54,644 nucleotides of DNA from Prevotella sp. (GTDB taxonomy: Bacteria; Bacteroidota; Bacteroidia; Bacteroidales; Bacteroidaceae): contig JAFYYV010000043.1 in assembly GCA_017557405.1 (NCBI GenBank), forward strand, positions 1-54,644, given 5' to 3'. A program made the translations under genes and the position numbers. The notes beneath the pieces were generated by a model. That model made no database searches. It was given only the letters and a program-made list of their open reading frames with translations, and was not told where the DNA came from. Positions 37,209-54,440 of the stretch are shown here, piece by piece. Numbering within the stretch: the stretch's first letter is position 1; each line of letters opens with the position of its first letter.

Positions 37209-39551
37209 CTACTTCTTCTTTGTAGTTTTTACTTTCGAAAAACTGTCAACTGTCATCTGTAAGAGATAACCGCGATGCACCCACTGCGAGAGCATGTTGC
37301 GTGTACCGCGAGTGTCCATGCCATTGGCTTGTCGGATGAGTTCTGCATCGTGCGTGGTAAACTCGTCGGGCAGAAGTTCTAGCAGATTACGCGGACCACG
37401 GCGTCCTGCTTGCTCATCAGCACTTCGGTTGGCATTCTCGATGGCCTCACCGAAGAAAGCCATCTTGCAATACATGTCATACTGAAGGCTCCAGCGAACA
37501 AACTCTTCAATCTCGCGACTCCACTTGTAGTCGTTGCAGATGTAGAGCACACAGGCCTTCAAGTAGGCGATGACGTTGGCTCGGAACGACAGGTTCTCAT
37601 AAACCCTCGATTGCGAGAGACGTGCAAACTCGGCACACTCATCCTTCAGCCGTTTGGCCAGGCTGAACGCCTGCGGACAGTCTATCACTCCAGCGGCACG
37701 GCAGAGGCGGTCAATGAAGGGTCTCAACTCTTCGTCGAAAGCCGCATCGTAAGTGCCATAGACGGGCATGTCGGCTCCGATTTCCCGCTCTGGGATGGTG
37801 CAGAAGTTGATGCGCGAGATGGGACCATCGGTCAAGACATTGCGAAAATAGCGCTGTCCTTTTTGGATGGTTGTGGCGGCATTCCAATTGAATCGGATGC
37901 AGACCTTTTCTGTGACCGACTGCGTACCCACACGCGTCTGTCCGTAACGGTTGTCGGGGTCGAAGGCCAGGCACATGATCTGGAACTGCTGCGAGCCACG
38001 AGCCGAACCACGAAGTGCGTCAAACTGGTCTATCTCGTTCATCTTCGTATAGAGGAAATGCTCGTCGGCCTCAGCCATACGCATCACGAAGGCAGGGTTG
38101 GTCATGTCGGGGTCAACCTCCTGAATCACAAGCCCTTCAGGTCTTTGCCTCTTGTCCTTATTCGAGCCCTTCGAATTCACTTCCCTCTTCCAGTCGGCCT
38201 CACGTTTCAGGTTCTCGGCATCACGCTTGCGGATGTCGGCCATGATGTGGTTGATGGGTTGCGAGATACAATCTTTACCAGCGCCCGTTCCGGCCATCAG
38301 CACGTTCATGAATGTTGCCTCGTGCATCACGTTGTCGATATACGGGAAGCGTACCTTCCACAGATGTGCGCCCAGCGGCGGAAAGATGGCATGGGCAACA
38401 GCAGGCTTATAGATGTCGGGAGTCTTCGAAGTGAGTATCTGCACCACCTTCGGCAGCTTTTTAGGCATCTCAGGAGCCCCTCTCAAGCCCTCCTTTGCAT
38501 TAGCCTCACCAGATTCTTCATTCTTCATTCTTCGTTCTTCACTTAAGCGTAGGCTCTTTGCCAACACCTTCCTTTGGAACTGCGACATCTTCTGATTCGG
38601 GTCATAGTATTTTGAATAGAAATCGTCCACCAACTGCTGAATGTTCTTGTCTTGCCAGTTCTGCGCCATGCGCACCTTCAACACACCCATCAGCTCAGGT
38701 TTCTTCAACAGCTGGGTGGCCCCCATAGAGAGAATGCTTTTCAAGGCCTCGTGCCGGTGACCTTCCACGATGAGCACATCGGGCGTCAGCTCAGCCTCCT
38801 TCATGCAAGCATCGAAAATGTAAAGCGTACGCGCATCCGCCTCAATCTCCTCGCTCCCTTCGGTAGCCTCACCCTTCTGGGGGAGGTTGGAGGGGGCTGC
38901 AAGTTTCCTTCCGTCCACATCCAACCCTCTCATCAGATAAGCCTCTCGGCGCTCCTCCAACTCATCGCCCTCGATGGGTTCCAGCCAATGCTCCGAGCGG
39001 AAAATCTCTTGGTCGATACCCGTCACATAGATATATCTTTCAGGAGTCCAGCACGAAGCGTCAAGCAGCCCTTCCTCTTCCGCAAAACCGATCTCCTCGC
39101 AGAAAGCACGTTGCGCCTCTTCGATGGTCATACCTTTCGGAATGCGTATGTAGATGTGGCCTTTGCCACGAGCCGAATAAGCCTCACGCAGCACCATGTC
39201 GTGCCACTCCGACAGCTCATCCTTGTTCACCTCCAACGCCTTCTCGAAAGCCCTCCTTACCAATTTTGGGTTGTCAATATCCACACACGTCATGAAGGTG
39301 AACGCCTCGGGAATGATGCAGTCCTGTGCCCGATGGTTGTCCTTGAACGCCGTGTAGTGAGGGCAGATGAATGGCAGCCAATCCTTCTTCTCCTCCTGTC
39401 CGGCACGAATGTCAGCCACATCGCGACGGAGCCACTCCTGGCGGAGCAGCTCGTCCAGCTGCTCCCCAGTTTGAGTCTCGGCATATCCCCGATTATTCTT
39501 CTGTTTGTCGGCGAAATGCTTCGTGTTCAGTGCAATCAATCTTTTTACCAT
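37209..39551 (-). CDS. Primase/helicase-like protein (BT4734-type N-terminus, DUF3987-like ATPase)
   Basis: A 780-residue protein. Residues 1 to about 200 match the BT4734/VirE-type N-terminal region often paired with helicases in Bacteroidota (FMTCVDIDNPKLVRRAFEKAL, ARGKGHIYIRIPKGM, ERYIYVTG). After a variable linker, residues about 370-720 form a DUF3987-like ATPase with P loop LMAGTGAGKDC and the sensor-like region MNEIDQFDALRGSARGSQQ. Likely a replication or plasmid-mobilisation helper in a mobile module; exact chemistry unknown. The linker holds an in-frame dispersed repeat (about residues 218-229) and a stretch coded by TTCATTC repeats (near residue 340). Confidence 0.75.
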   Translation of the reverse strand: MVKRLIALNTKHFADKQKNNRGYAETQTGEQLDELLRQEWLRRDVADIRAGQEEKKDWLPFICPHYTAFKDNHRAQDCIIPEAFTFMTCVDIDNPKLVRRAFEKALEVNKDELSEWHDMVLREAYSARGKGHIYIRIPKGMTIEEAQRAFCEEIGFAEEEGLLDASCWTPERYIYVTGIDQEIFRSEHWLEPIEGDELEERREAYLMRGLDVDGRKLAAPSNLPQKGEATEGSEEIEADARTLYIFDACMKEAELTPDVLIVEGHRHEALKSILSMGATQLLKKPELMGVLKVRMAQNWQDKNIQQLVDDFYSKYYDPNQKMSQFQRKVLAKSLRLSEERRMKNEESGEANAKEGLRGAPEMPKKLPKVVQILTSKTPDIYKPAVAHAIFPPLGAHLWKVRFPYIDNVMHEATFMNVLMAGTGAGKDCISQPINHIMADIRKRDAENLKREADWKREVNSKGSNKDKRQRPEGLVIQEVDPDMTNPAFVMRMAEADEHFLYTKMNEIDQFDALRGSARGSQQFQIMCLAFDPDNRYGQTRVGTQSVTEKVCIRFNWNAATTIQKGQRYFRNVLTDGPISRINFCTIPEREIGADMPVYGTYDAAFDEELRPFIDRLCRAAGVIDCPQAFSLAKRLKDECAEFARLSQSRVYENLSFRANVIAYLKACVLYICNDYKWSREIEEFVRWSLQYDMYCKMAFFGEAIENANRSADEQAGRRGPRNLLELLPDEFTTHDAELIRQANGMDTRGTRNMLSQWVHRGYLLQMTVDSFSKVKTTKKK
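38867..38899 (+). repeat. GC-rich hairpin repeat, copy E, inside the primase-like gene
   Basis: CCTCACCC TTCT GGGGGAGG followed by TTGGAGGGGGCT on the plus strand, antisense to the gene. The gene reads through it as APSNLPQKGEA. Confidence 0.8.
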
Positions 39552-40992: not shown

Positions 40993-41023
40993 CAATTTTA
41001 GCTTGCACTACAAGCTAAAATTG
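40993..41023. repeat. Perfect hairpin overlapping a stop codon
   Basis: CAATTTTAGCTTG (40993-41005), loop CACTA, CAAGCTAAAATTG (41011-41023). The last codons and the stop of the 417-residue gene lie within the stem. On the plus strand TTTT follows, so it could terminate transcription in that direction too. Confidence 0.8.
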
Positions 41024-42251
41024 TTTTATCTACGAATTCCTTCACCCTTTGGCGAAGCGACTCTTCCAATTCCAGAAGACCGTTGTTGATGTATTTCCTC
41101 ATTCCGTTGTTCTCACCCTCCAGCATCTTGGTCACATTTGCAAAGGTTTCATCCGAACGATATACGTTCCTCTTTTTCAGATAACCCACAATGCAGTAGA
41201 GCGTCTTCTTGCTAAACTCCTTGAACTTCTCGCGCACACCTGCCTGCGCAATCTCTTTGCGGAACTCCTTGAAGATATGCTTCCAGAGCGGCGTTATCTG
41301 CTGCGTCCACTCCTCCGAAACCACATCGTTCAGTTTCGCCAACAGAGCGAACACCTTCGTCTCCAACTCGTCCTCTTGGGGCGAAGCCTTCTCCTTGCGC
41401 TTCTTCGACGGCTGCAGATCGTTGCCAATCATCGTCCACAGCTCAACGAAGGTGAACAACGCCACCAACTCTTGGCTGAAAAACGGGCGCATCTCGTCGA
41501 TATACGAAACACCGAACCTATCGGTGTGAGTGAACAGGAAGCGCGACAAACCGTCGATGTCCAACGACATCTGTTCCGAATCGAACACCTGCTCAAACTC
41601 GTCGTCGTTCAGGAACTGCTGCCTGAACGCCTCCAACGCCTCACGCCTCTTGTCCTCCAGATGCTTCTTCAAAGTGCGCGAAGAAAACGAGATCTTCCAC
41701 TTCTGATAATCCTTCTTGCACGCCTTCAAATAGTGCTTCCGGTAGTTCTCCTGCCATTGCCTCCAAGAAACCTCAATCAACTCCTCAGTAGGCGAATTCA
41801 AAAACTCCGAGATCTCCATCAGCACCTCGTTCAAGTCGCGAAGCGCACATATCAAGATGGTGGGGATATCCTCCACCTTCGTGTCCTGGAACAACGATTG
41901 CGAACTCTTGTCGTAAGCCACACCCTGCTGCGCCTCCTTGAAGTCAACGAAGCATTCCGATTCATACTCATACAGGTTCACGTCCACCTTGTTCAAGTAG
42001 TAAGCCTTCCTCACCGTCTTCATCATATCCCAAATCTTCGCGCCCCACGATGGGAAGTTCACATCGCAAGCCTCGCCAAGAGGCAGACATTGCTGCCAGT
42101 TTTCCAACGTCATTTCAAAAACTTTCGTCAGTCGGCAAGCATCAACTGCCAAACTCAAACTCACCGCATGCAGCGAGAGCAAACAGTGGGTATTTTCCAA
42201 GCACACGGTCTTCTGCTCAATATTCGTCAAAAGGTTATTATCGATAGTCAT
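40998..42251 (-). CDS. Hypothetical protein, 417 residues
   Basis: A mostly helical cytoplasmic protein with no signal peptide, no membrane span and no nucleotide-binding or nuclease motif I can see. Its middle is Lys/Glu-rich and probably coiled (RTLKKHLEDKRREALEAFRQQ). The last 150 residues (VFALLAKLNDVVSEEWTQQITPLWKHIF, KTLYCIVGYLKKRNVY) look like a separate helical domain. It has its own consensus promoter at 42422 and a 170-nt leader. It sits between the repeat-bordered primase module and the defence operon and might belong functionally to either. I do not recognise a family. Confidence 0.7.
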   Translation of the reverse strand: MTIDNNLLTNIEQKTVCLENTHCLLSLHAVSLSLAVDACRLTKVFEMTLENWQQCLPLGEACDVNFPSWGAKIWDMMKTVRKAYYLNKVDVNLYEYESECFVDFKEAQQGVAYDKSSQSLFQDTKVEDIPTILICALRDLNEVLMEISEFLNSPTEELIEVSWRQWQENYRKHYLKACKKDYQKWKISFSSRTLKKHLEDKRREALEAFRQQFLNDDEFEQVFDSEQMSLDIDGLSRFLFTHTDRFGVSYIDEMRPFFSQELVALFTFVELWTMIGNDLQPSKKRKEKASPQEDELETKVFALLAKLNDVVSEEWTQQITPLWKHIFKEFRKEIAQAGVREKFKEFSKKTLYCIVGYLKKRNVYRSDETFANVTKMLEGENNGMRKYINNGLLELEESLRQRVKEFVDKTILACSAS

Positions 42252-42609: not shown

Positions 42610-42855
42610 TTACCATCCGCCGCCATCTAATCCATCTGTAGGAAAATCGTCAGGGTCGGTATATCCATTCCACGAGCTGTCATATCCGTCCCGACGCCGT
42701 TGTTGACTAGGGGTAGTATTGAAAGGTCTGCTTCGCAACCAATAATAGTCACAAGAATCACAGTGGTAAGTCACAGGTCTCTCAATGTACAAACTGACAT
42801 CCCATGACCCACATTTGGGACAAAATATCATTTCTTTGTTCATCGATGAATCCAT
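42610..42855 (-). CDS. Small zinc-ribbon protein
   Basis: An 81-residue protein if started at the ATG behind AAGGTG; a GTG two codons upstream is possible. Two CxxC pairs (Cys12/15 in FCPKCG and Cys32/35 in CDSCDYYW) form a classic zinc ribbon, followed by a Gly/Asp-rich disordered tail. It is the last gene of the defence operon, 13 bp after the previous stop. A role in binding nucleic acid or bridging proteins is a guess. Confidence 0.75.
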   Translation of the reverse strand: MDSSMNKEMIFCPKCGSWDVSLYIERPVTYHCDSCDYYWLRSRPFNTTPSQQRRRDGYDSSWNGYTDPDDFPTDGLDGGGW

Positions 42856-42868
42856 AGGCACCTTGTTG

Positions 42869-43339
42869 TTATTTCGTCAGTTTTTTCTCAACAATGAAAT
42901 CGCGCAGTTTCATTCTCCATTCACGATTTTGCAGAAGCACCCACAAATCATCATCGAAACGAGCAGACGACACATTCTCCTTCAGCCACCCTGTAGATGG
43001 TGTTGCTCTGCCTTCGCGCTCTTTCTTCAAATGCAAGTGCCAGAATCCATCTGAGTGCAAATGCCAGAAGGGATTATAGATACTTGAGGGATCATCGAAT
43101 TGGGAATCCTTTGTATATTTTCGCATCAGCGAAAGATAACGCACCTCCAACCAATCCGTCAAACTAAAGTTATTCCCAACGAATTCTCCATCATTCACTC
43201 CATCCAAGAGTGCAAGCATCAGAACAGGTTTGGCAACAATCACCTCACCATTTATCTTCGCTTGCCTGAGGTTAAAAATACATTGAGTATAATACTCGAA
43301 GCATTTCTCGTAATTGTAAAAACGCAATACCCTGTTCAT
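42869..43339 (-). CDS. Stand-alone McrA-N/sulfur-binding-domain-like protein
   Basis: A 156-residue protein. The pattern AKPVLMLALLDGV, then a hydrophobic helix, and YNPFWHLHSDGFWHLHLKK matches the first domain of predicted McrA-like HNH restriction enzymes (COG3440 type: KPxLLLALLD ... PFxHLxSDGFWHL). In characterised members this domain reads phosphorothioate DNA. No HNH domain follows; the protein ends after about 50 further residues. It starts 24 bp after the helicase stop. Binding of modified DNA is a hypothesis based on pattern only. Confidence 0.6.
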   Translation of the reverse strand: MNRVLRFYNYEKCFEYYTQCIFNLRQAKINGEVIVAKPVLMLALLDGVNDGEFVGNNFSLTDWLEVRYLSLMRKYTKDSQFDDPSSIYNPFWHLHSDGFWHLHLKKEREGRATPSTGWLKENVSSARFDDDLWVLLQNREWRMKLRDFIVEKKLTK

Positions 43340-43363
43340 ATTACTACTTTATTTACTCATTAT

Positions 43364-46252
43364 TTACTCCTCTCCCCATGTCCCTTTTGTATCAAACTCG
43401 TCTATGATTTCAGGAAGAATGTCAATATCGGTGCTGGATGTGGTAACTCCCATAAAGAAAGTGGCTCGTGACAGACCCACATAAAGGTATCTGCTAATCA
43501 GTTTGGAGGCCTTCACCTTGTCAATATTATGGAAGAACACGACCTCAAACTCCATTCCTTTCACCTTGTCAAGTGGGAAGATACGTAGCATATCCTGAGC
43601 GGATAGGTTATCACCTGAGCTACAGTCTTTCACATCAATACCGTTGTTTTCCAAACGTCCATCGTCCTTCAGAAGCATCTCCAGTTCTGCTGCATCCTGC
43701 TTGTCTGCAACAAATACAGCGATAGAAGGAACAAAACCATACTTCTGCTTCACTTCAAGCACACGTTTGGCAATCCATTCCGCCTTTTCCTCTTCATCAT
43801 CCGACTTAAGCAAGAGTGGGTTCGGACAACTTTCATCTTGTTCAAGTTTGCACTTGTAGGGCGACGGCTGTTTCATCTCATGCTCATAAATGGCATCAGC
43901 CAAACGCATCAGTTTGGGGCTTTGTCTATATGAAATGGTGAGATCCTTAACCTCTACATTGTCAAACATATAAGGATGTTGCAAGTCCATCCAGTCGGAG
44001 ACACCATCAAGACGCAACCCCTGCATAATATCGCCTGTCAAGGTAAATGATGAAACCTTGTAGTGGCGCAAAGAGTTGATTGCATAGTAATCAACTAGCG
44101 TGTAGTCCGTTGCTTCATCTATTCCGATGACAGGACGGCATACGTCTTTATAAGCCAATGCAAATTTATGTTTTAGAATTTCGAATCGACGAATAGACAC
44201 AGAACGTATGCTTAATACAAGGTTATTGATGAATCCTATAAGCAGAGCCTGTTCCTGCTGGCACAATGGGCGGTTTTTCTCGTCTTCCACAATCTGCCTC
44301 AGTAGTTTCCTGTTCCATCCGGCCATATTCGTCTTGAGTGCTTCTCGGCGGAAGTTTTTATAGATAGATGTTATCTTGTTGAAAAGATAGCCCTCGTAAT
44401 TGTGAATTATAGGATAGAAGAACTGCATAAAGTAAGCGTATTCAGCAAGATTCTCGTAATCGGCTACAACGATACGATTATCTACCATTTCATAGAGTTG
44501 TTTTGCCCTACCACTAAGTGTGATTTTCTTATCTATGGTGTGTAGAGCTAGTCTCTTCATCATAGTCTTCAATGTGTTCAACAACTTGTTCTCGGCACCA
44601 GCGAGGATTTCTTCCTCATCCATTTCGCCAGCTTCCTCTTCTTCCTCTTCAGTAAGATTGTTGTTCTTCCAGTTTTTGGCCATTTCCACAAGGCTGGCGT
44701 AGAACTCTTCATCCTTATGCCATTCTGCCATATAGGATGTGGATATACGCTGCATTTTTTCCTTATATGCGCCCTCGACATCCTTTGCAGAAGGAATCCC
44801 CGGTGGTGTTGGCATCTCGTGTATTGCGTCCAAATCAAGCATCAGCCTTACAAGTGAAGATGTTGCACTGATACGCTTGTTCGCATCTTTGCAGATCTCT
44901 GTGATACGCTTACCCACCTGATGCCACATGAAACGACTTGTGTCAATCTCTGCCACGACTTGCAGTTTCTTCTTCATCTCCATGATGTATTCACGGAGGA
45001 AACGATTGATGAGCGTGACGTGATTATTTGTATAGATGGGTTTTTCGTTCATCCATGCCTTTGCAAAATCAAATGGAAAATCATCACCGGCAAATTGGTA
45101 TTTATCGCGTACAAGAGTTCTTCTCAAATAGTCAGCCCACACTACTGTTTTGTTGTTGGTATCTGTCAAGCCCTCATAGTTCATGTTATCGCGCATAAAC
45201 TGTCGGAGTAGTTCAGTGGGCGAGAAGAAAATCCAGTTGCGCTCAGGGTCAGATGCAATATGGATTTGTTCGTCTGTAAGTTTGCAATCTTCATGATTAT
45301 CACGATAGTCTCTAAGATCATCTTCACTAATAAGTAATTTCAGTCGTTGAATTAGTGTTGTGGTCTTGCCTGTACCAGGGCCTCCATCAATTATCACAGT
45401 TGTACCATCAAGTACATGTGAGAATTTGATGTCTCGTTGTGTCTCATCAAGCTTTGGGTTAAGACGCAGCGATGCCTGCTTACGAATGAAGTTGGCTGCA
45501 TTGGCATATTTGTCTGATATGGCAGCCAATTCCTTTTCAATCTGTAGTCTTTCTTCTTCAGCCTGCCGCTTACGTTCCTCTTCTTCACGAACCTGTCTTT
45601 GACGTTCCTCTTCTGCTTTGCGTTTATCTTCTTCTATCCTTCGACGTTCTTCTGCATCGCGAGCTTCTTGTATAAGGCGTTGTCTTTTTTCTTCATCGCG
45701 ACGACGTTGCTCTTCCAATTCTTGCAGGTGGCGTTTTGCCTCGTCAGCTTTCTTGCTGGCTTCTTTCTGCTTTTCTGACAGGTCTGTTACTTTTTGTAGG
45801 GCAGACTGGATATCTTTGAAGAATAAGAAGCGAGGCATACCAGCGGTAGCCAAATGTATATTTGAAACAGCATTTCTTTCTGACATCCTGGGCGAATCGT
45901 AGTTGGCGGAATTTAGCAACTGTATATGAATGCGCCTACCTTCTACAACAGGGTCAAACTCACCTTCATAATTATATTGTATAATTTGCCCATACTTATG
46001 ATTCTTTGACACCGTAGGACCGTCTGTTACTAGCGTATCAGTCCACGCATCTTCAATAGTCTTGATGCTACCATCACTATAGTATGTTGCATTTCTTCGA
46101 CGTTCAACACCTTTATTTGTAAGCCATACCGCAGTCACTTTATTCCCTATTTTTACTAAGCCTCGACCAACAGCTTGATTGGGTTTGGCTTCCTTTATTT
46201 CTTTGTCCGCATGACTTTTGATGCTGACGATGATATTCTTCAGACTTTCCAT
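43364..46252 (-). CDS. Superfamily 1 helicase with long N-terminal coiled coil
   Basis: A 962-residue protein from the ATG at MESLKNIIVS; the open frame begins nine codons earlier at a TTG. Residues 1-150 are an unrecognised beta-rich domain, and about 155-245 a very Arg/Glu-rich coiled coil. UvrD/Rep-like helicase motifs follow: Walker A GGPGTGKTTTL (about 287), Walker B VIGIDEATDY, motif III TLTGDIMQGL, motif IV SYRQSPKLMRLADA, motif V DKVKGMEFEVVFF and motif VI YVGLSRATFFMGV. A DNA translocase acting with the restriction enzymes is likely. It follows hsdR by 42 bp. Confidence 0.85.
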   Translation of the reverse strand: MESLKNIIVSIKSHADKEIKEAKPNQAVGRGLVKIGNKVTAVWLTNKGVERRRNATYYSDGSIKTIEDAWTDTLVTDGPTVSKNHKYGQIIQYNYEGEFDPVVEGRRIHIQLLNSANYDSPRMSERNAVSNIHLATAGMPRFLFFKDIQSALQKVTDLSEKQKEASKKADEAKRHLQELEEQRRRDEEKRQRLIQEARDAEERRRIEEDKRKAEEERQRQVREEEERKRQAEEERLQIEKELAAISDKYANAANFIRKQASLRLNPKLDETQRDIKFSHVLDGTTVIIDGGPGTGKTTTLIQRLKLLISEDDLRDYRDNHEDCKLTDEQIHIASDPERNWIFFSPTELLRQFMRDNMNYEGLTDTNNKTVVWADYLRRTLVRDKYQFAGDDFPFDFAKAWMNEKPIYTNNHVTLINRFLREYIMEMKKKLQVVAEIDTSRFMWHQVGKRITEICKDANKRISATSSLVRLMLDLDAIHEMPTPPGIPSAKDVEGAYKEKMQRISTSYMAEWHKDEEFYASLVEMAKNWKNNNLTEEEEEEAGEMDEEEILAGAENKLLNTLKTMMKRLALHTIDKKITLSGRAKQLYEMVDNRIVVADYENLAEYAYFMQFFYPIIHNYEGYLFNKITSIYKNFRREALKTNMAGWNRKLLRQIVEDEKNRPLCQQEQALLIGFINNLVLSIRSVSIRRFEILKHKFALAYKDVCRPVIGIDEATDYTLVDYYAINSLRHYKVSSFTLTGDIMQGLRLDGVSDWMDLQHPYMFDNVEVKDLTISYRQSPKLMRLADAIYEHEMKQPSPYKCKLEQDESCPNPLLLKSDDEEEKAEWIAKRVLEVKQKYGFVPSIAVFVADKQDAAELEMLLKDDGRLENNGIDVKDCSSGDNLSAQDMLRIFPLDKVKGMEFEVVFFHNIDKVKASKLISRYLYVGLSRATFFMGVTTSSTDIDILPEIIDEFDTKGTWGEE

Positions 46253-46294
46253 AACGGGTGTCTCTAATTTATTAAACAATTTAATTATTAATTC

Positions 46295-49200
46295 TCACGC
46301 CACCCATCCATATCCTTGTACGGCCATATCGATGAAGTGGTTCAGCAGCAGCTTTGTCTTGTCCATAAAGGTAACACGGTCATAGCTCTCAGGCAAATCA
46401 GTATTCAGCGATGTTTGAATGAGCATGAAGACTTTTTCTCTGGGTTGTTCGTCTTTATACCAATCGACAACCATCAAAGTCTCTTTTGCTGCTATCAACT
46501 TCTGATACAGATTCTTGGCAGCGAGTATCACTTTCTGCTGTTCGCTCTTCGTCAGTTTCCTGCCTTGAATGAGCAAGTCGTATATCTCCAGCTCTTCCTC
46601 TTCAAGCCCCAAGTCTGTAGAGCGCGACTGCTCAGCTTTCATGTCTTCTATCAGCTGAAGCAGCTTCTCATAGTAATCCTCGTTCTCGCTTCCTCCTGCA
46701 TTGTATTGGTCGATGATGTTCTTATAACGCTGGGAGAAGGAAACACGAGTGCAATTCTTGTCAATGAGTTGTTCCAAAACCTTTTCGATGAATGCCCGAA
46801 GGTCTTCAATCTCGAGTGCTTTGTATGGTGAGGCAATCAACTCCTTGCGTATTTCTTCTATCTCTATCTTGCTCAAGTCAATCACCTTTCCCTCATGAAT
46901 CACGTAATCCACATCATCGCTCACCTTGTCTGCTGAAGAAACACTCTGGTCGAGAGTAGCAGCCATTTTTGCTCTTGCATTCTCCAGTTTCTCATCGTCA
47001 ACCCGATTGCAGAACAAACCATTTATATAGCAGATGGGCGAGAATTTCTCATTATGCCATCCGCGCTCGAAGATTTCTGGTTTGCTGGCATCATATAGGG
47101 TTATCATCAGATTGCTGAGCACCTTGAAACGATTCTTCCACTCATCCTTCTCCAAGATTCTGTCATATGCTTCTCGCAACATATCCAACTGGTCAAGTGT
47201 GTTGCTTTCGGCAATGATGTCATCCAGACTTATTCCTATCGAAAGCAAGAACGCATCGCACTCCTTAATACAGTTGTCGATATTGATGATAAGCAGGTCA
47301 ATATTCTTGGCAGGATATTCCTCTCCCTTACTGTTCGTTGCATAGTCTTTCAGCGCCTGTTGCATGTACTTGAACACGTTGACATAGTCCACGATGATTC
47401 CACATGCTTTTCCCGGGAACACACGATTCGCACGAGCAATAGCCTGCATCAACGTGTGGCTCTTCATGGGCTTGTCGAGATAAAGGGTTGAAAGTGAAGG
47501 CACATCGAAGCCTGTCAGCCACATGGCGCACACAAACACCAAACTCAATGGGTCGTCTTTATCCTTGAATCTGTCTTCTATATCTTTGCCATCGGGGGTT
47601 ATCTCGTTCAGCTTGTTCCGATGCATAGTGATGTCGAGGTTACGCTTCTTGAATTTCTCCACCTCGTCGCCTTCCTCACTAATGACAACAGCCATCTCCA
47701 CACTGTTCATGTAGCTCAGAATGTCGGTCAACTTCTTGCGCTCCTCTTCGCTTTTTGCATCATTGCGTTGCTTTACAATCTCCTTTCTCTCCTCTGCCCA
47801 GTAGTGTTGCACCTTGTCATACATCTTCACGGTGGTGTATTTGTCAACGCTAATCACCATTCCCTTTCCAAGGAAACCACGACGTGGAAAATGGTGGGCA
47901 ATGTCCTTTGCAATTTTGTCGAGGCGTTCATCTCGCTTGATGACCTCCAAGATGCGCGAAGAGCTGTTCTCTAGTAGCTCTCTTTCCCTGTCATTCAGTT
48001 CCTCCTCTTCTTCTATCTGGTCGATATCGGTATCCAGCCATTCGTTGGAAAGTCCCACTTCTGGCACTCGCCTGCTATAGAACAAAGGAACTGTCGAACC
48101 ATCTGCTATAGCCTCTGCGAAATTATATTCTGACACATAGTCGCCAAACCATTGGTTTGTCAGCCTCTTACTACCCAGTAGCGGTGTTCCCGTGAAGGCG
48201 ATGTAGTTGGCATTTGGAATTCCTGTATGCATGTTCTCTGCCAGCTGTTTGTATTGTGTTCGGTGGGCTTCATCGACCAACACAAAGATGTCATTTCGTT
48301 CCGAGAGCAAAGGATATTTCTGTGTCTTGTCGTATTGGAACTTATGAATCAGCGTAAACAACATGGGCTTGTTGCTCATCAAGTATTCGCGTAGCTGTGA
48401 TGAGTTTTTCGGCTGGCATTCTTCTTTCTCGCCTATCACTTCCGTACGCACGAACGTCTTGTGTATCTGCGTGTCCAAGTCCTCACGGTCAGTAATGATT
48501 AAGAAGGTGAAATTGCCGTGCAACTTGCGTTTTACCTTCCTGACAAACATCACCATCGAATAGCTTTTTCCTGAGCCTTGTGTGTGCCAGAATACACCCA
48601 ACTTTCCGTTCAATTCTTCTCGGTGCTCCACGTTTCTCATCAGGTTGTTCACACCCAGATACTGGTGGTTCTTGGCAATAATCTTGATGCGCTTGCTGTC
48701 AAAGAATATGAAGTTCTCAATATAGTCAAGAAGTCGTTCTTTCTTAAACAAGCCGTCCATCAGGTTCTGAATGGAAAGTCCGTGCTCAGCTATCTGCTCT
48801 CTGTCAATGACCTCCTTCTCGTTGTCCACGCGTAGCCATTCGAAGTATTGCTCATAGACCGCATCCCATGCACCCATTTTCGTCTGCAATCCATTCGAGA
48901 GCACGCATATCTGATTCAGGGCAAACACGTTAGGGATATCCTTACGATATGAGACCAAATTCTTCTGGTAGGCCTCTTCTATTTTCACCGTCGAGTTCTT
49001 CAACTCTATGAACACCACAGGCAGACCGTTCACAAACAGCAGCACGTCGGGTCTTCTGTAGCGGAAGTGGCCTTTTATCCACATTTGGTTCACACAGTGG
49101 AAGTCGTTGTTCTCTGGGTTGTCAAAGTCTATGATTTTTACTATATCGAAATCTTCGCGCTGATTGCGACGTGTAGTTACCTTTATCCCATTGCGAATCT

Positions 49201-49495
49201 GATTGTAGAATTTGTAGTTCGTATCCACTATGTCAGTTCCGCTATAGTCCTTCCGATAATCGCTCACAATACCCTCAATCGTTTCATCGTCTATCTGAGG
49301 ATTGATGCGATGCAACGCCTTACGGAACACATCGGGCAGGATGCATTCCTTCACGCTGCTGCGACCCGTGCTACTCACATCGTCTTGCTTGTCAACGCTG
49401 GGATCGCACTCTATGCGCTTCCAACCATATTCAGGCTGCGACAATCGTATGCATATCGCTTGTTCTATAGCGTCTTCGCTGATAAAGGATTTCAT
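46295..49495 (-). CDS. hsdR: Type I restriction enzyme, R subunit
   Basis: A 1066-residue motor-nuclease. The N-terminal PD-(D/E)xK site is visible in RRPDVLLFVNGLPVVFIELKN. SF2 motor motifs follow: HTQGSGKSYSM (about residues 303-314), VDEAHRTQY, AFTGTPLL, ARANRVFPGK. The C-terminal helical part binds the methylase. Size and motif order match the R subunit, with no break. The order M-S-(DUF262)-R differs from the simple M-S-R. It translocates DNA and cuts unmodified targets with HsdM2S. Confidence 0.95.
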   Translation of the reverse strand: MKSFISEDAIEQAICIRLSQPEYGWKRIECDPSVDKQDDVSSTGRSSVKECILPDVFRKALHRINPQIDDETIEGIVSDYRKDYSGTDIVDTNYKFYNQIRNGIKVTTRRNQREDFDIVKIIDFDNPENNDFHCVNQMWIKGHFRYRRPDVLLFVNGLPVVFIELKNSTVKIEEAYQKNLVSYRKDIPNVFALNQICVLSNGLQTKMGAWDAVYEQYFEWLRVDNEKEVIDREQIAEHGLSIQNLMDGLFKKERLLDYIENFIFFDSKRIKIIAKNHQYLGVNNLMRNVEHREELNGKLGVFWHTQGSGKSYSMVMFVRKVKRKLHGNFTFLIITDREDLDTQIHKTFVRTEVIGEKEECQPKNSSQLREYLMSNKPMLFTLIHKFQYDKTQKYPLLSERNDIFVLVDEAHRTQYKQLAENMHTGIPNANYIAFTGTPLLGSKRLTNQWFGDYVSEYNFAEAIADGSTVPLFYSRRVPEVGLSNEWLDTDIDQIEEEEELNDRERELLENSSSRILEVIKRDERLDKIAKDIAHHFPRRGFLGKGMVISVDKYTTVKMYDKVQHYWAEERKEIVKQRNDAKSEEERKKLTDILSYMNSVEMAVVISEEGDEVEKFKKRNLDITMHRNKLNEITPDGKDIEDRFKDKDDPLSLVFVCAMWLTGFDVPSLSTLYLDKPMKSHTLMQAIARANRVFPGKACGIIVDYVNVFKYMQQALKDYATNSKGEEYPAKNIDLLIINIDNCIKECDAFLLSIGISLDDIIAESNTLDQLDMLREAYDRILEKDEWKNRFKVLSNLMITLYDASKPEIFERGWHNEKFSPICYINGLFCNRVDDEKLENARAKMAATLDQSVSSADKVSDDVDYVIHEGKVIDLSKIEIEEIRKELIASPYKALEIEDLRAFIEKVLEQLIDKNCTRVSFSQRYKNIIDQYNAGGSENEDYYEKLLQLIEDMKAEQSRSTDLGLEEEELEIYDLLIQGRKLTKSEQQKVILAAKNLYQKLIAAKETLMVVDWYKDEQPREKVFMLIQTSLNTDLPESYDRVTFMDKTKLLLNHFIDMAVQGYGWVA

Positions 49496-49541
49496 AGGCT
49501 ACTACATTTAAATAATTAAACTCTGCCTCTACATAAACGAA

Positions 49542-51578
49542 TCATTCTGCTTCCAATAAAGCCTTCAGCTCATCGCTGATGAATGGTTCTTGTAGCGAGG
49601 CAAAGAAACCAAAATCAATCTCATTCTTTGCTTGCATGATGTCCTGAAACTCCTGCGTAGTTGTAGTAACAGGAATTGTACCCGACAATGCTTGCATAGG
49701 TGTGGGATTGGGAATGTTTCGTGTTACTGAAAGACGATAACGGGTTATTCCATTACCCACTATCTTGTCCAGTTTCACGCTTTCCTTACCTTTCTTGGCA
49801 TACAACATTTGCTCTTCGCTCTCCACTTCAGTAACGTTGCTCACAAGATTCTTCTTATAGAAGGTCATCAAACGAGTGCGTACTTCGTCTCGACGACTTT
49901 CAATGTCTTCAGGCAACCAATCGTCTGAAGTGTGAATGGTAACGAGATCTTGGACCTCTTTGATGTGAGAGGTGATATAATTGCGTTTCTTTTCACCGAA
50001 ATATCCATTTCCAGCCCTGATGTTCAGACGCTTCTCGAAAGGTATCTTGTTACCGATGCTCTCCAAGTGCTCTGCAGCGCTCTCTTTAGTCCATCCGAAA
50101 TAATTGGCTTGTTTCCAACGCTTCGGCAGAATATGTTCTATCTCCAACTTACCTGTGAACAACTTGCTATCTGTGTCGTAAAGATATGAGTTAAGAAGAA
50201 TAATGCTCTTCACCACCTTCGAACTCGTACGTGATGATTTCTCTATCAAATCTTCGAAATCAACGGGGATGATATTCTGGAACACAGTATCGCCGTTGTG
50301 GTAAATGTCAATGCAGAACTTATACGTGGGTGGTTTGATGGCATTCACCTGTGGCTTGACAATGAACTGCACATGCATGTAGGATAACAACCCACGCAGG
50401 AACTTCTCCATGTGTTTCTTGAATTCTTCCTCCCCTCTATTCTTAATGTAGAAAACACTCACCACACACCGCCAATAGTCGTTGGGGAAGTTCACCAAAC
50501 AATGAACATATTTGATGGCTTCTTCTGTGTAATAGTCGTTGTCTTCTTCATATTTACCTACAATTTCGTAGGTGGTTACCCAAAAGTTTGCCAATTCTTT
50601 GATGTCCTCAAAGAAATTCTCTTTGTGCAATTCATCGTACTTGTAGTTTTCACCAGCATAGAATTTACGCAAACCCATTTCATTGTCGGTTACGTTATCT
50701 CTTGCACGAATCACATGCATGTAGAAGCGGAACATGTCGTTGATGGTGAGTCCACTGTCCTCGACAAGTTCTTCAAGGTTCTTCCAGTCGTCAGTAAATG
50801 TCGTTTTCTCTTCGGGTGTCTTCAGTTTCTTGTATATTTCTGCTTTGAAAATGTCGGAATCCGACAACGGCATTCCTCTGTTGTTCAATGTACTGAAGAT
50901 GGTCAGAGCCGAATTAAGGTCTTCACACTCAATGGGGAATACTATGCAGTCATTGAGGATAGTCAGGCAAAGTTCCTTCCACATCATCGTATTCTCTGCT
51001 GCGAATTCTTCGCACTTGTCAAAGAAAAACGTGTAGTTTTTTGCGTATGCTGACTTGCCATCACGTTTATCACCTGAACAAAGAATGTTTTTGAAGTCAT
51101 CATTGTCGTTATCTAGGGCAACACGACTATCAATTTTCTGTTGCATCCTGTCCTCAACTTCAAGCGACATTTTGTCTATTTTCCAGATACACGGCTCTAT
51201 TTGCTTCATCAAGCCCTTTATATTCCTATCTTCAGGATAGTCCACTGCCATTTTCTCCAACTTGGAGTAAAATGCACGAAGAAGCAGTAGCAGCGATGTC
51301 ATACGCTGCTGACCATCGATGACATTTACCTCGTTCTTATTGGCTTCATCTTTGCACGTCACTATCGTGCCGATAAAGTATTCTTTGGGGGCATCCTCGC
51401 TTTTCTTCTTATCCATGAAGAAATTCTTGATGTCAGTCCAAAGTGTATCACACTCTATCTGCCCCCATCTGTACGGACGCTGATACTCGGGAATCACATA
51501 TAGCTTATCAATGTTGGAGTCATCAGATAGACTCAGCAATGATGATATTTTCTTTTTACTAACTTGTAGTTCTGCCAT
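49542..51578 (-). CDS. DUF262-DUF1524 protein (GmrSD/BrxU/SspE architecture)
   Basis: A 678-residue protein between hsdS and hsdR. N-terminal DUF262: YQRPYRW (32-38) and the nucleotide-site motif IDGQQR (Asp88-Arg92). C-terminal DUF1524 HNH-type nuclease: LEIEHILPKRW (Glu481-His482), then IGNKIPFEKRLNIRAGNGYFGEKKRNYI. The same two-domain layout occurs in GmrSD (cuts glucosylated phage DNA), BrxU and SspE (senses phosphorothioate). Both active motifs are intact. It is spaced 25 bp after hsdS and 46 bp before hsdR, so it is an operon member rather than a later insertion between transcripts. Confidence 0.9.
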   Translation of the reverse strand: MAELQVSKKKISSLLSLSDDSNIDKLYVIPEYQRPYRWGQIECDTLWTDIKNFFMDKKKSEDAPKEYFIGTIVTCKDEANKNEVNVIDGQQRMTSLLLLLRAFYSKLEKMAVDYPEDRNIKGLMKQIEPCIWKIDKMSLEVEDRMQQKIDSRVALDNDNDDFKNILCSGDKRDGKSAYAKNYTFFFDKCEEFAAENTMMWKELCLTILNDCIVFPIECEDLNSALTIFSTLNNRGMPLSDSDIFKAEIYKKLKTPEEKTTFTDDWKNLEELVEDSGLTINDMFRFYMHVIRARDNVTDNEMGLRKFYAGENYKYDELHKENFFEDIKELANFWVTTYEIVGKYEEDNDYYTEEAIKYVHCLVNFPNDYWRCVVSVFYIKNRGEEEFKKHMEKFLRGLLSYMHVQFIVKPQVNAIKPPTYKFCIDIYHNGDTVFQNIIPVDFEDLIEKSSRTSSKVVKSIILLNSYLYDTDSKLFTGKLEIEHILPKRWKQANYFGWTKESAAEHLESIGNKIPFEKRLNIRAGNGYFGEKKRNYITSHIKEVQDLVTIHTSDDWLPEDIESRRDEVRTRLMTFYKKNLVSNVTEVESEEQMLYAKKGKESVKLDKIVGNGITRYRLSVTRNIPNPTPMQALSGTIPVTTTTQEFQDIMQAKNEIDFGFFASLQEPFISDELKALLEAE

Positions 51579-51603
51579 ATTGTTATAGTTATTAGGTTTT
51601 TAT

Positions 51604-52758
51604 TTATGCTTTTACTTCAAGTTTTCCACTCATCAAGCGTGGGAGGAGGAGGTCACGCTGGCGTGAGAGAAGAGTGTTTTGCTTAAGCAGTTGGTTCTTT
51701 TCCCTTTCAAATGTTTTAACTATATTCTCAAATCTTAGTTGTATTTTTATATCTGGGACGAGAACTTTTATTGATACAAAACGCCCCCAATGTCTTTTGT
51801 ATTCCTCTGTTTGAATTAATTTATGTGTTGCATAAAATAGCCAATATTCATTTATTCGGCTCTTACTATTTGTCGTAAAAGGAATAACATTTTCACCAAG
51901 AGAGAAGTTTCTTGTCATTAATTGAAATTTACAAGAATGGTCACCAAACAACAATAGAGGATTATCATAGTTGGCATAATGTGACGGTTCGTTGTTATGA
52001 TATCCCAAACTGTCATCCGTTGATTGATCTATCACTATAACAGCACCTTGTTTCTCAAGTTCATATTCTTTATATGTTCTATTGAAAGGTAAACGTTTTA
52101 CGATACTCTTTACTTTTTCAACTTTCCAACTCTTAGGTAAGCCATTTTCAAACTCTGCCTTTTCGTGACCAGGAAAGCGGAAACGAACAAACCACTCCTT
52201 ATAGAGATTCTCTGCCATTTGTTCCAATAAGCGAATTCTACGATTGTTGTTCTCTATCAAATTGTCGTAAGCAGAAAGAATAGAGGCAATGCGACGCTGG
52301 GCAGACAAAGTATTGTATGGAACATTGAATCTTCCAAAAATCCTTGCATTCATACCAGGTTGAGCAGACCCCCCAATATAGTTATTGACAAAGCCATAAT
52401 AGGTTTTGCTCTTTAACACATATTTCAAATAAGAAGGAAGAATTTTTGACTTGTCAAGATTAAAACGAATAAGATAGGAAGCATAAACCGTATTATTAAC
52501 TCCTTTAGAAACAACATAATTATAACCCGTTGTTGCACCAGTCCTTGCAATCAACACATCACCTTCACGCACCAAATATTGTTCTACTTTGTTTTGAGGA
52601 ATCGAACAAAATGGAACAGTCTCAAAGTTAACAAAATAAGGGACAATGTCAGTAATTCGAAGATATTTGTAAACACCCTCTGTCTTACTCGTTTCATCTG
52701 CAGTATAACCATATTGCGTTGAAAGAGTGATGTCTTTCAATTTAACATACTCCATCAT
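51604..52758 (-). CDS. hsdS: Type I restriction specificity subunit
   Basis: A 384-residue S subunit with two target-recognition domains. The first (to about residue 150) ends in the central conserved helices LSAQRRIASILSAYDNLIENNNRRIRLLEQMAENLYKEWF. The second ends in RFENIVKTFEREKNQLLKQNTLLSRQRDLLLPRLMSGKLEV. The code is clearly more AT-rich than the neighbours, as often for exchanged recognition domains. Its ATG overlaps the hsdM stop by one base (TAATG). No second hsdS fragment or invertase is in the window. Confidence 0.95.
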   Translation of the reverse strand: MMEYVKLKDITLSTQYGYTADETSKTEGVYKYLRITDIVPYFVNFETVPFCSIPQNKVEQYLVREGDVLIARTGATTGYNYVVSKGVNNTVYASYLIRFNLDKSKILPSYLKYVLKSKTYYGFVNNYIGGSAQPGMNARIFGRFNVPYNTLSAQRRIASILSAYDNLIENNNRRIRLLEQMAENLYKEWFVRFRFPGHEKAEFENGLPKSWKVEKVKSIVKRLPFNRTYKEYELEKQGAVIVIDQSTDDSLGYHNNEPSHYANYDNPLLLFGDHSCKFQLMTRNFSLGENVIPFTTNSKSRINEYWLFYATHKLIQTEEYKRHWGRFVSIKVLVPDIKIQLRFENIVKTFEREKNQLLKQNTLLSRQRDLLLPRLMSGKLEVKA

Positions 52759-54440
52759 TACCCCTCCCCAAACAGTTCTTTCATGTTTTTATCTATCTCT
52801 GCCTGAAAAGCGAGGGCTTCTTTGTTGAGTTCTGAGAACTCAGCATGCAAACCCTTCATGGTATCACGGAATTCATCTTCCGTCATACCATCATCTTCAA
52901 TCACTACACCCACATAGCGACCTGCATTCAGAGAATAGTCTTGGTCTTTGATGCCATCCTCGCCATCGAGTTTGGCAACCTTGCAAAGACCTACCACATC
53001 CTGATATTTACCATCGGGCCAACGCTCCAACAGCCAATCTACTTGGTCTTGCTGGCCTGCTGCCTTGTATTCCTCTACAAGTGCCCAGAAGCTATCAGAA
53101 TCGCCTTCATACAAGCGAGTGATGATGCCTAGATTTTTTATCTGCTCGTCAGAGAATTTGCGATGGGCGCGGTCCACTTGCGTAAAAATGTTTCGGGCAT
53201 CGATGAAGAGGATTTCGTCTTTCTTCGTGCGCTGCTTGTTGAAGAACCACAGCGTGGCAGGCAGCGTAACAGTAGAGAACATATTGCTGGGCAACGTCAC
53301 CATCTGACTGATGATGCCGTCCTCAATCATCTTCTTGCGAATCTCCAGTTCTGAGCCTCCTGCATCGCTGGCTGAGTTGGCCATTACGAGGGCTGCCTTG
53401 CCATTTTCATTGAGGGCTGTGGCAAAATAGCCTATCCACAGATAGTTGGCATTGGGCACAGTCTCTTTCTTGTCGCTGGCTTTCTTCGTCGACTTCGACT
53501 TGTTGCGAGGAACACCGTAGGTATTGAAACGGGGGTCGTCCAAAACTCTTTCCAGCACCACTTCATCAACGTTGAACGGCGGATTGGCCATCACATAGTC
53601 GAATGCTTCAAAAGCATTGTAGGGGTCGCTATAGAATGAGTTGGCTTCGGTAATCTCTCCACGCACATTGTTCAGCAGCAGGTTCATCTTTGCCAGCTTA
53701 ACGGTATCGGGTTCTTTTTCCACTCCATAACAGCGGAAACGCATCATATCTTCGTTGGTGGCATTGTGCTTGTGCATATAGCGGGCTGCTTGCACAAACA
53801 TACCACCTGACCCACAAGCGGGATCAAGGAATTTCTTGTCGCCTGTGACAGGATGAAGCACCTCTACCATATACTGCACAACGCTGGCTGGCGTGTAGAA
53901 AGCTCCTCCTCCCTGACCTTCTGCCAAAGCAAAGTTTCCAAGAAAATATTCGTAAATCTGACCAAAGAGGTCGATACTGATATCCTCAGGAATGTCTTTG
54001 AACACGCGCACTATACGGCTCAGCAGTTCGGGTTCTTCTTCTGGCACCAACTGACCATAAACCTCTTTGGGTAGGACACCCTCCATATATGAATTCTCTC
54101 GCTCGATGGCTTCCATCGCTTGCTTCACCAAAATGGCTTTATGTGCATCGTCGGGAGCATTGTTGATGGTGTCGAAGTAGGCACATTCAGGGAGATAAAA
54201 CCCACATTTCTCAATCGCAATCGACTTGTAATCACGTTCCATACGAGAGCCCTTGTATTTCTCGTACTCCGCATCGATGTCTTTCTTATGCTGCTTGAAA
54301 AGGATGTCAGCATAGCGCAAGAAGATGAGTCCAAGGATGGGCTGGCCATATTTGTTAGCTGCAAGATGTGCACCAGCACGCAGCATGTCTGCTGAATGCC
54401 AGAGGTTATCTTTCAACGTCTTCAGTTCAATATCTGTCAT
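52758..54440 (-). CDS. hsdM: Type I restriction methylase subunit
   Basis: A 560-residue N6-adenine methyltransferase. I start at MTDIELKTLKDNLWHSADMLR; a frame extends 32 codons upstream through a hydrophobic stretch that covers the promoter, so it is not real. Motifs: GGGAFYTPASVVQYMVEVLHP, FLDPACGSGGMF (AdoMet binding) and DYVMANPPFN (catalytic NPPF). A consensus promoter sits 33 bp upstream. It is the first gene of the operon and overlaps hsdS by one base. Confidence 0.97.
   Translation of the reverse strand: MTDIELKTLKDNLWHSADMLRAGAHLAANKYGQPILGLIFLRYADILFKQHKKDIDAEYEKYKGSRMERDYKSIAIEKCGFYLPECAYFDTINNAPDDAHKAILVKQAMEAIERENSYMEGVLPKEVYGQLVPEEEPELLSRIVRVFKDIPEDISIDLFGQIYEYFLGNFALAEGQGGGAFYTPASVVQYMVEVLHPVTGDKKFLDPACGSGGMFVQAARYMHKHNATNEDMMRFRCYGVEKEPDTVKLAKMNLLLNNVRGEITEANSFYSDPYNAFEAFDYVMANPPFNVDEVVLERVLDDPRFNTYGVPRNKSKSTKKASDKKETVPNANYLWIGYFATALNENGKAALVMANSASDAGGSELEIRKKMIEDGIISQMVTLPSNMFSTVTLPATLWFFNKQRTKKDEILFIDARNIFTQVDRAHRKFSDEQIKNLGIITRLYEGDSDSFWALVEEYKAAGQQDQVDWLLERWPDGKYQDVVGLCKVAKLDGEDGIKDQDYSLNAGRYVGVVIEDDGMTEDEFRDTMKGLHAEFSELNKEALAFQAEIDKNMKELFGEG

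Follow-up and report, generated by a model that had tools for sequence, protein, structure and literature searches.

GmrSD-family genes within type I restriction-modification loci have already been published and tested (PMC11411939). In the sections of that paper drawn on here, the TgvAB genes of the Vibrio cholerae VPI-2 type I system lie inside the hsd operon, depend on two DUF262 proteins and were tested against phages with modified DNA. A second kind of defence module, the sulfur-binding domain (SBD) of phosphorothioate-DNA readers, is treated in the corresponding sections of PMC10853773 and PMC12839542 as a winged helix-turn-helix domain fused to SRA and HNH domains. Here we describe a seven-gene operon of Prevotella sp. 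that joins relatives of both. It lies on contig JAFYYV010000043.1 of assembly GCA_017557405.1, and its sequence predicts an intact type I system, an embedded GmrSD-family nuclease and a tail made of an SF1 helicase (HEL), a stand-alone SBD and a zinc ribbon (ZR; Table 1). The whole 54,644-nt stretch analysed, hereafter the window, is one entire contig of a 3.56 Mb assembly of 54 contigs that is 99.89% complete. Judged from the genes of other genomes, the helicase-SBD pair is a recurrent add-on to defence operons.

Table 1. Features of the operon and its flanking promoter-like elements in the window
Feature	Position	Strand	Evidence and remarks
Bacteroidetes-type promoter TTTG-N19-TAnnTTTG	54503-54473	-	exact match; 32 bases upstream of hsdM start codon
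hsdM, type I adenine methyltransferase subunit, 560 aa	54440-52758	-	Pfam N6_Mtase 1.5e-74, HsdM_N 5.6e-17; motifs DPACGSG, NPPF
hsdS, specificity subunit, 384 aa	52758-51604	-	Pfam Methylase_S 3.3e-15; Specificity_I 6.4e-50
GmrSD-family (DUF262-DUF1524) nuclease, 678 aa	51578-49542	-	GmrSD_N 1e-37, GmrSD_C 2.1e-13; between hsdS and hsdR
hsdR, restriction and translocation subunit, 1066 aa	49495-46295	-	HSDR_N 1.2e-41, SWI2_SNF2 9.8e-72, TIGR00348 above cut-off
HEL, UvrD/HelD-like SF1 helicase, 962 aa	46252-43364	-	HelD, PcrA and UvrD by sequence; long charged helical stretch at about residues 166-263
SBD, stand-alone sulfur-binding-domain protein, 156 aa	43339-42869	-	NCBIfam NF045808 1.1e-7, PDB 8h0l 5.3e-8, Foldseek
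ZR, small CxxC/CxxC zinc-ribbon-like protein, 81 aa	42855-42610	-	two CxxC; acidic glycine-rich tail; sub-threshold Pfam zinc-ribbon matches only
Second promoter-like element	42452-42422	-	between zinc ribbon and 417-aa ORF; next such match on the same strand

All seven open reading frames (ORFs), on the minus strand from 54440 to 42610, are intact, each with an ATG start and a stop codon. From hsdM to the zinc ribbon the gaps are -1, 25, 46, 42, 24 and 13 bp, so that the first-pass annotation was exact in reporting seven same-direction genes at these distances behind one consensus promoter. The genes likely form a single transcription unit, because the terminator scan lists a weak site close to where the nuclease gene ends (49579-49565) and no terminator-like site directly 3′ of the zinc ribbon. 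The second promoter-like element likely marks the end of the operon.

The front half, with the order hsdM-hsdS-GmrSD-hsdR, represents a known type of arrangement and would by itself be ordinary. HsdM, HsdS and HsdR occur together with their catalytic motifs (RPD..ELK, GSGKS and DEAH in HsdR). The embedded protein unites DUF262, with DGQQR, and the His-Me finger of DUF1524 in one chain that carries QR, DGQQR, FxxxN and HNH residues; by analogy with its family, it would cleave DNA with modified bases. The front half thus reads as the first-pass annotation had it, with HsdRMS and a GmrSD-family nuclease in one operon. Since GmrSD genes inside type I loci have been published, the idea of a complementary attack is already in print. 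Compared with TgvAB as presented in those sections of PMC11411939, which has two adjacent DUF262 proteins, the window has DUF262 in one of its 7 genes, as a fused DUF262-DUF1524 protein, and adds the helicase-SBD-ZR tail. The description of the nuclease as SspE-like fares poorly: in PADLOC it scores best against HEC-06 (155 bits) and Orf5 (126 bits), compared with 66 bits for SspE. At E <= 1e-60, three relatives of this protein besides the window's (35-39% identical) occur in the family sample of 201 genomes; no hsd gene was seen beside any of them, but two of the three have a contig end no more than about 320 bases away, so that one flank is missing. No second copy of the whole seven-gene operon was found in the same sample.

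The interest lies in the tail, and first in its 156-residue protein, which had been labelled McrA-N-like and which we reassign to the SBDs of the phosphorothioate-DNA reader family. The match to NF045808, the NCBIfam model of phosphorothioated-DNA restriction endonucleases, is below the cut-off of that model. A structure model built from 20 relatives (mean predicted local distance difference test score, pLDDT, of 87.6) has the SBD fold: with this model as the Foldseek query, ranks 1-11 are all SBD chains in the Protein Data Bank (PDB), six of them with E <= 0.001. Like the SBDs of ScoMcrA, SprMcrA and the Hga protein (PDB 8h0l), the predicted domain combines this fold with a cavity Pro and Lys/Arg; unlike them, it stands alone, without an HNH or SRA domain. 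No nuclease family matched it in Pfam or PADLOC, and it is not an SBD-HNH fusion of the ScoMcrA type.

Cavity residues were mapped by a profile alignment to ScoMcrA (5zmo), whose E value of 0.76 means that it was used only together with the fold. In this mapping, H116-R117 of ScoMcrA correspond to A36-K37 and Y164-P165-A168 to N89-P90-H93. The proline is present in all 29 close alignment rows, that is, the window and 28 further loci, six added rows being excluded (L032, L035, L036 and three Ssp-operon proteins). At the place of R117, lysine occurs in 26/26 rows that cover the site, which L063-L065 do not. Changes at R117 and P165 substantially disrupt binding, according to the part of the ScoMcrA paper considered here. 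At the place of A168, 8h0l carries the same histidine as the window SBD.

Two lines of evidence connect SBDs of this kind to phosphorothioation. Thirty SBD loci came from a scan of the species-genome collection, 28 of them with a stand-alone SBD ORF (L066 and L067, which have none, were dropped; L063-L065 are shortened or cut). First, in other Bacteroidales, SBDs of this subfamily follow Ssp-type phosphorothioation operons in 9 of the 28 loci (L042, L043, L046, L047, L048, L050, L051, L055 and L063), at a gap of 55-239 bp and with 54-62% identity to the window SBD (L063 being shortened). The first large gene of L050 is SspC (PADLOC E=0), another matches TIGR04095, a phosphorothioation restriction enzyme, at 1.1e-118, below cut-off, and a third is PP-loop/PAPS-reductase-like (NCBIfam 2.3e-9, below cut-off; no Pfam match at 0.001). 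Clustering with L050 is the basis for the other eight, seven of which show an SspC-like gene; the SBD of L043 is overlapped at its end by a further ORF on its strand, and a contig end is close by in L047 and L048. An SspD-like profile (A3) matches 12/27 SBD genomes and does so over its full length in 10, namely the nine with Ssp-type loci and G1002. Second, a more distant small SBD gene (L032, 9392-9826; 30% identical) stands behind a PAPS reductase gene (4.1e-30); a large ATPase gene on its other side looks BrxC-like by eye. From its kin behind Ssp-type operons, we infer that the window SBD binds phosphorothioate DNA. An SBD-containing protein of 626-746 aa occurs in five of the Ssp-type loci as well. 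In L050 and its kin, the SBD cluster also took in a further protein (203 aa in L050), which aligns poorly.

The remaining SBD loci are varied. Two place the SBD behind type III methyltransferase, DndD-like and HerA-like genes (L045, typed directly, and L062, by clustering); despite the DndD-like protein, they were rejected as sulfur-making systems on account of the type III methyltransferase. In L041 the genes before the SBD encode a cytosine methylase, an AAA protein, a PD-(D/E)XK protein and Vsr, and six loci (L053, L054 and L056-L059) lie near a gene assigned by eye as Fic-like, with downstream genes alike in most and upstream genes that vary. Two are helicase-linked (L038 and L052), and eight lie at contig edges or are undefined. 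A DUF6339-SBD fusion in G110 (L098, 8604-10268; SBD 57% identical to the window's) shares its run with genes for a cytosine methylase and a MutH-like protein. A separate SBD search gave 21 matches, of which the 17 weaker than E 1e-60 were excluded from the close ones. Among plasmids, 12 records have an SBD match, 10 annotated as HNH endonuclease and 2 as hypothetical. Scans of viral contigs with the helicase, the SBD and the SBD alignment confirmed no relative; one phage record from human faeces (GenBank MT835963, 3878-4279) gave a weak SBD match, 28.5% identical.

No such phosphorothioation context was found in the window's own host. Its genome has no match to PF01507 (PAPS_reduct), for which the control matched in 14/14, and none to the SspD-like profile A3, which does match the genomes of Ssp loci and was used as well because PF01507 alone would miss the PAPS-reductase-like protein of L050. 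A DndD match is likewise absent from this genome, by a control that matched in 9/14, none above cut-off. In contrast to Ssp systems, of whose SspE the window nuclease is only a distant relative, the seven operon genes include neither SspC nor SspD; the genome-wide search covered PF01507 and SspD-like proteins, SspC not being searched genome-wide. The host, in which no known phosphorothioation gene was found, may nonetheless reach phosphorothioation by other routes.

These observations suggest a layered defence operon, our preferred explanation, which we hold tentatively and at somewhat short of even confidence. HsdRMS would cut DNA that lacks the host methyl pattern, and the GmrSD protein would attack DNA with modified bases. 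The SBD would dock on phosphorothioate marks carried by incoming DNA and bring in the helicase, which would unwind or clear the sulfur-marked DNA. As no known gene for phosphorothioation turned up in the host, foreign DNA with sulfur marks is the most likely target of the tail; because no nuclease was recognised in the tail, its partner would probably be a resident one, HsdR or the GmrSD protein. If the tail does read sulfur marks, one operon would cover unmodified, base-modified and backbone-modified incoming DNA, with modification readers as separate, exchangeable parts and not domains of one nuclease, and would connect methylation-based with sulfur-based defence in Bacteroidales in a way open to testing.

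The same host data suit a different account, in which an SBD beside methylating systems has been retuned to a different mark or structure, be it methyladenine, hemimethylated DNA or DNA modified otherwise, and makes the helicase depend on methylation by the host itself. Consistent with such a change, the place of the cavity histidine is alanine in 26/26 close rows that cover it, and all three helicase-linked SBDs, including the window's, have a methylation-based system with them or nearby (type I, MADS-like and BREX). However, that alanine is shared by 8/9 SBDs behind Ssp-type operons (L063 lacks this part) and by the L032 SBD behind the PAPS reductase gene, and the cavity Lys and Pro are retained. 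We regard retuning as unlikely.

The second component of the layered-defence explanation is the helicase. HEL carries the SF1 motifs GGPGTGKT, DEATD, GDIMQ, SYR, KGMEFE and YVGLSRA, with Pfam matches near the cut-offs (UvrD_C_2 just below, Viral_helicase1 just above). It has SF1 motifs in common with HelD, UvrD and GajB; by comparison with these, it has a long charged N-terminal stretch and only partial profile matches. A model from a 3-row alignment has a mean pLDDT of 37.8; the N-terminal helix is visible only there, and no fold search was based on it. Relatives are sparse: with the window included, they occur in 4/201 genomes of the family sample, 2/395 of the phylum sample and 4/393 of the order sample, not counting 6/10 matches of the family-sample search that were confined to some 90 residues within the charged stretch. 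Ten plasmid records have a HEL match, none covering 80% of the query. Two distant relatives lie on plasmids (L012 and L014): the one in Aeromonas is near DUF262 and SNF2 genes, and the one in Sphingomonas precedes genes for a PLD nuclease, a cysteine desulfurase and a PAPS reductase family protein.

The helicase precedes the SBD in three runs, each on one strand: in the window (Table 1), in L052 (gap 3) and in L038 (two genes between). L052, on the same contig as G038, holds the pair in a MADS-like operon after mad2-, mad5-, mad6-, mad7- and mad8-like genes, of which the mad2- and mad5-like genes score below generic methylase and specificity models. This operon (L015, 13608-15462, and L037) also has an extra protein, PP2C-like by eye and with a weak PADLOC PDC-M21C match, and two unknown genes, of 214 and 182 aa, before the pair. 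In L038 the run stands behind BrxC, PglXI, BrxH, PglZ and BrxA genes, a BREX system that we assign to type 3 by its PglXI, and a second SF1 helicase (711 aa) and a zinc ribbon (80 aa) lie between helicase and SBD. Thus the same helicase family and an SBD accompany MADS-like and BREX genes there and type I restriction in the window. Approximately unbiased (AU) tests reject one clade both for the three SBD-linked helicases (p 1e-75) and for the three helicase-linked SBDs (p 0.002), the tested groups being defined by adjacency, with long branches present and L063-L065 left out of the SBD tree. Single origin being rejected by these trees, the pairing appears to have arisen more than once.

A more general form of the preferred explanation would make this pair, a stand-alone sulfur reader with a nuclease-less SF1 motor, a portable phosphorothioate-sensing cassette, assembled more than once beside type I, MADS-like and BREX systems, that redirects a resident nuclease to the DNA of phosphorothioation-using neighbours; in this full form it is doubtful. 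At the other extreme, HEL, SBD and ZR might be separate small defence genes brought together by ordinary defence-gene clustering, each acting alone without a common pathway. The helicase and the SBD do occur apart more often than together, and the zinc ribbon is almost an orphan. The HEL family matches 5/27 SBD genomes: it lies beside the SBD in L038 and L052, is a C-terminal remnant of 75 residues 1.9 kb before the SBD in G983 (L044), with an AAA_14/DUF4143 gene between, and is not beside it in G991 and G992 (genomes G690 and G872), which were rejected as pairs; in G872 the two are about 18 kb apart. Three same-strand helicase-then-SBD runs drawn from different lineages of both proteins speak against loose clustering, which we judge rather improbable. 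The first-pass proposal of a conserved three-gene add-on accordingly survives for helicase-then-SBD, which recurs in a MADS-like operon and behind BREX, and not for the trio, which does not appear to be a fixed unit: the pair occurs in 2/28 other SBD loci (L038 and L052), helicases without an SBD exist, and the zinc ribbon recurs once, marginally. In the sections of PMC10853773 and PMC12839542 considered here, no stand-alone SBD is paired with an SF1 helicase.

Helicase similarity also suggests damage limitation, in which HEL clears stalled HsdR, GmrSD or polymerase complexes as HelD would and the SBD serves as the targeting part. Profiles relate HEL to the HelD and HelR motors, and sequence comparison relates it to HelD structures, but these matches are partial (about 90 residues by profile and about 230 positions by sequence), UvrD/PcrA match too, and the sulfur reader is left unexplained. 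We consider this account very unlikely.

Several observations weigh against a layered operon with a sulfur-reading tail. At three cavity positions the SBD departs from ScoMcrA (H116 to A36, Y164 to N89 and A168 to H93), and H116 was among the most conserved positions in a 2018 survey, in the portion of it used here. The gaps behind Ssp-type operons leave co-transcription of those SBDs undecided. An intact helicase is missing from the same run in 26/28 SBD loci; conversely, no SBD lies beside the helicase in the fetched stretch of L016 (a short contig), L017, L033, L074 or the plasmid loci L011-L014. Between BrxA and the L038 run lie 572 bp, and a WYL-domain gene comes 25 bp after its SBD, so that the run is not clearly the end of the BREX operon. 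Fisher tests of helicase-SBD co-occurrence, with cut-offs chosen after seeing the data, give p 1.6e-6 in the order sample with the window and 1e-4 without it, and p 0.002 in the family sample; they are weak without the window and with one count per genus (0.01 in the order sample, where G690 and G872 then also count once, and 0.04 in the family sample). Finally, the zinc ribbon has no confident relatives among 151 family genomes, which gave 3 weak matches besides the window.

The zinc ribbon may still belong to the helicase-SBD module. One of the two other loci with the pair, L038, has a zinc ribbon of the same layout (two CxxC and an acidic glycine-rich end), with a marginal similarity whose alignment score was reached by 15/1000 shuffles.

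The motif TTTG-N19-TAnnTTTG, which we take to be the Bacteroidetes promoter consensus, has 8 matches in the window compared with a mean of 0.53 in shuffles. Sigma-70 promoters, with 18 promoter-like sites compared with 26.9 in shuffles, were set aside. Beyond the operon, the second promoter-like element lies upstream of the 417-aa ORF (40998-42251, minus strand), which has no convincing match in Pfam, PADLOC or NCBIfam. Further on, a 780-aa ORF without a Pfam match (37209-39551, minus strand) adjoins a DUF5675 gene.

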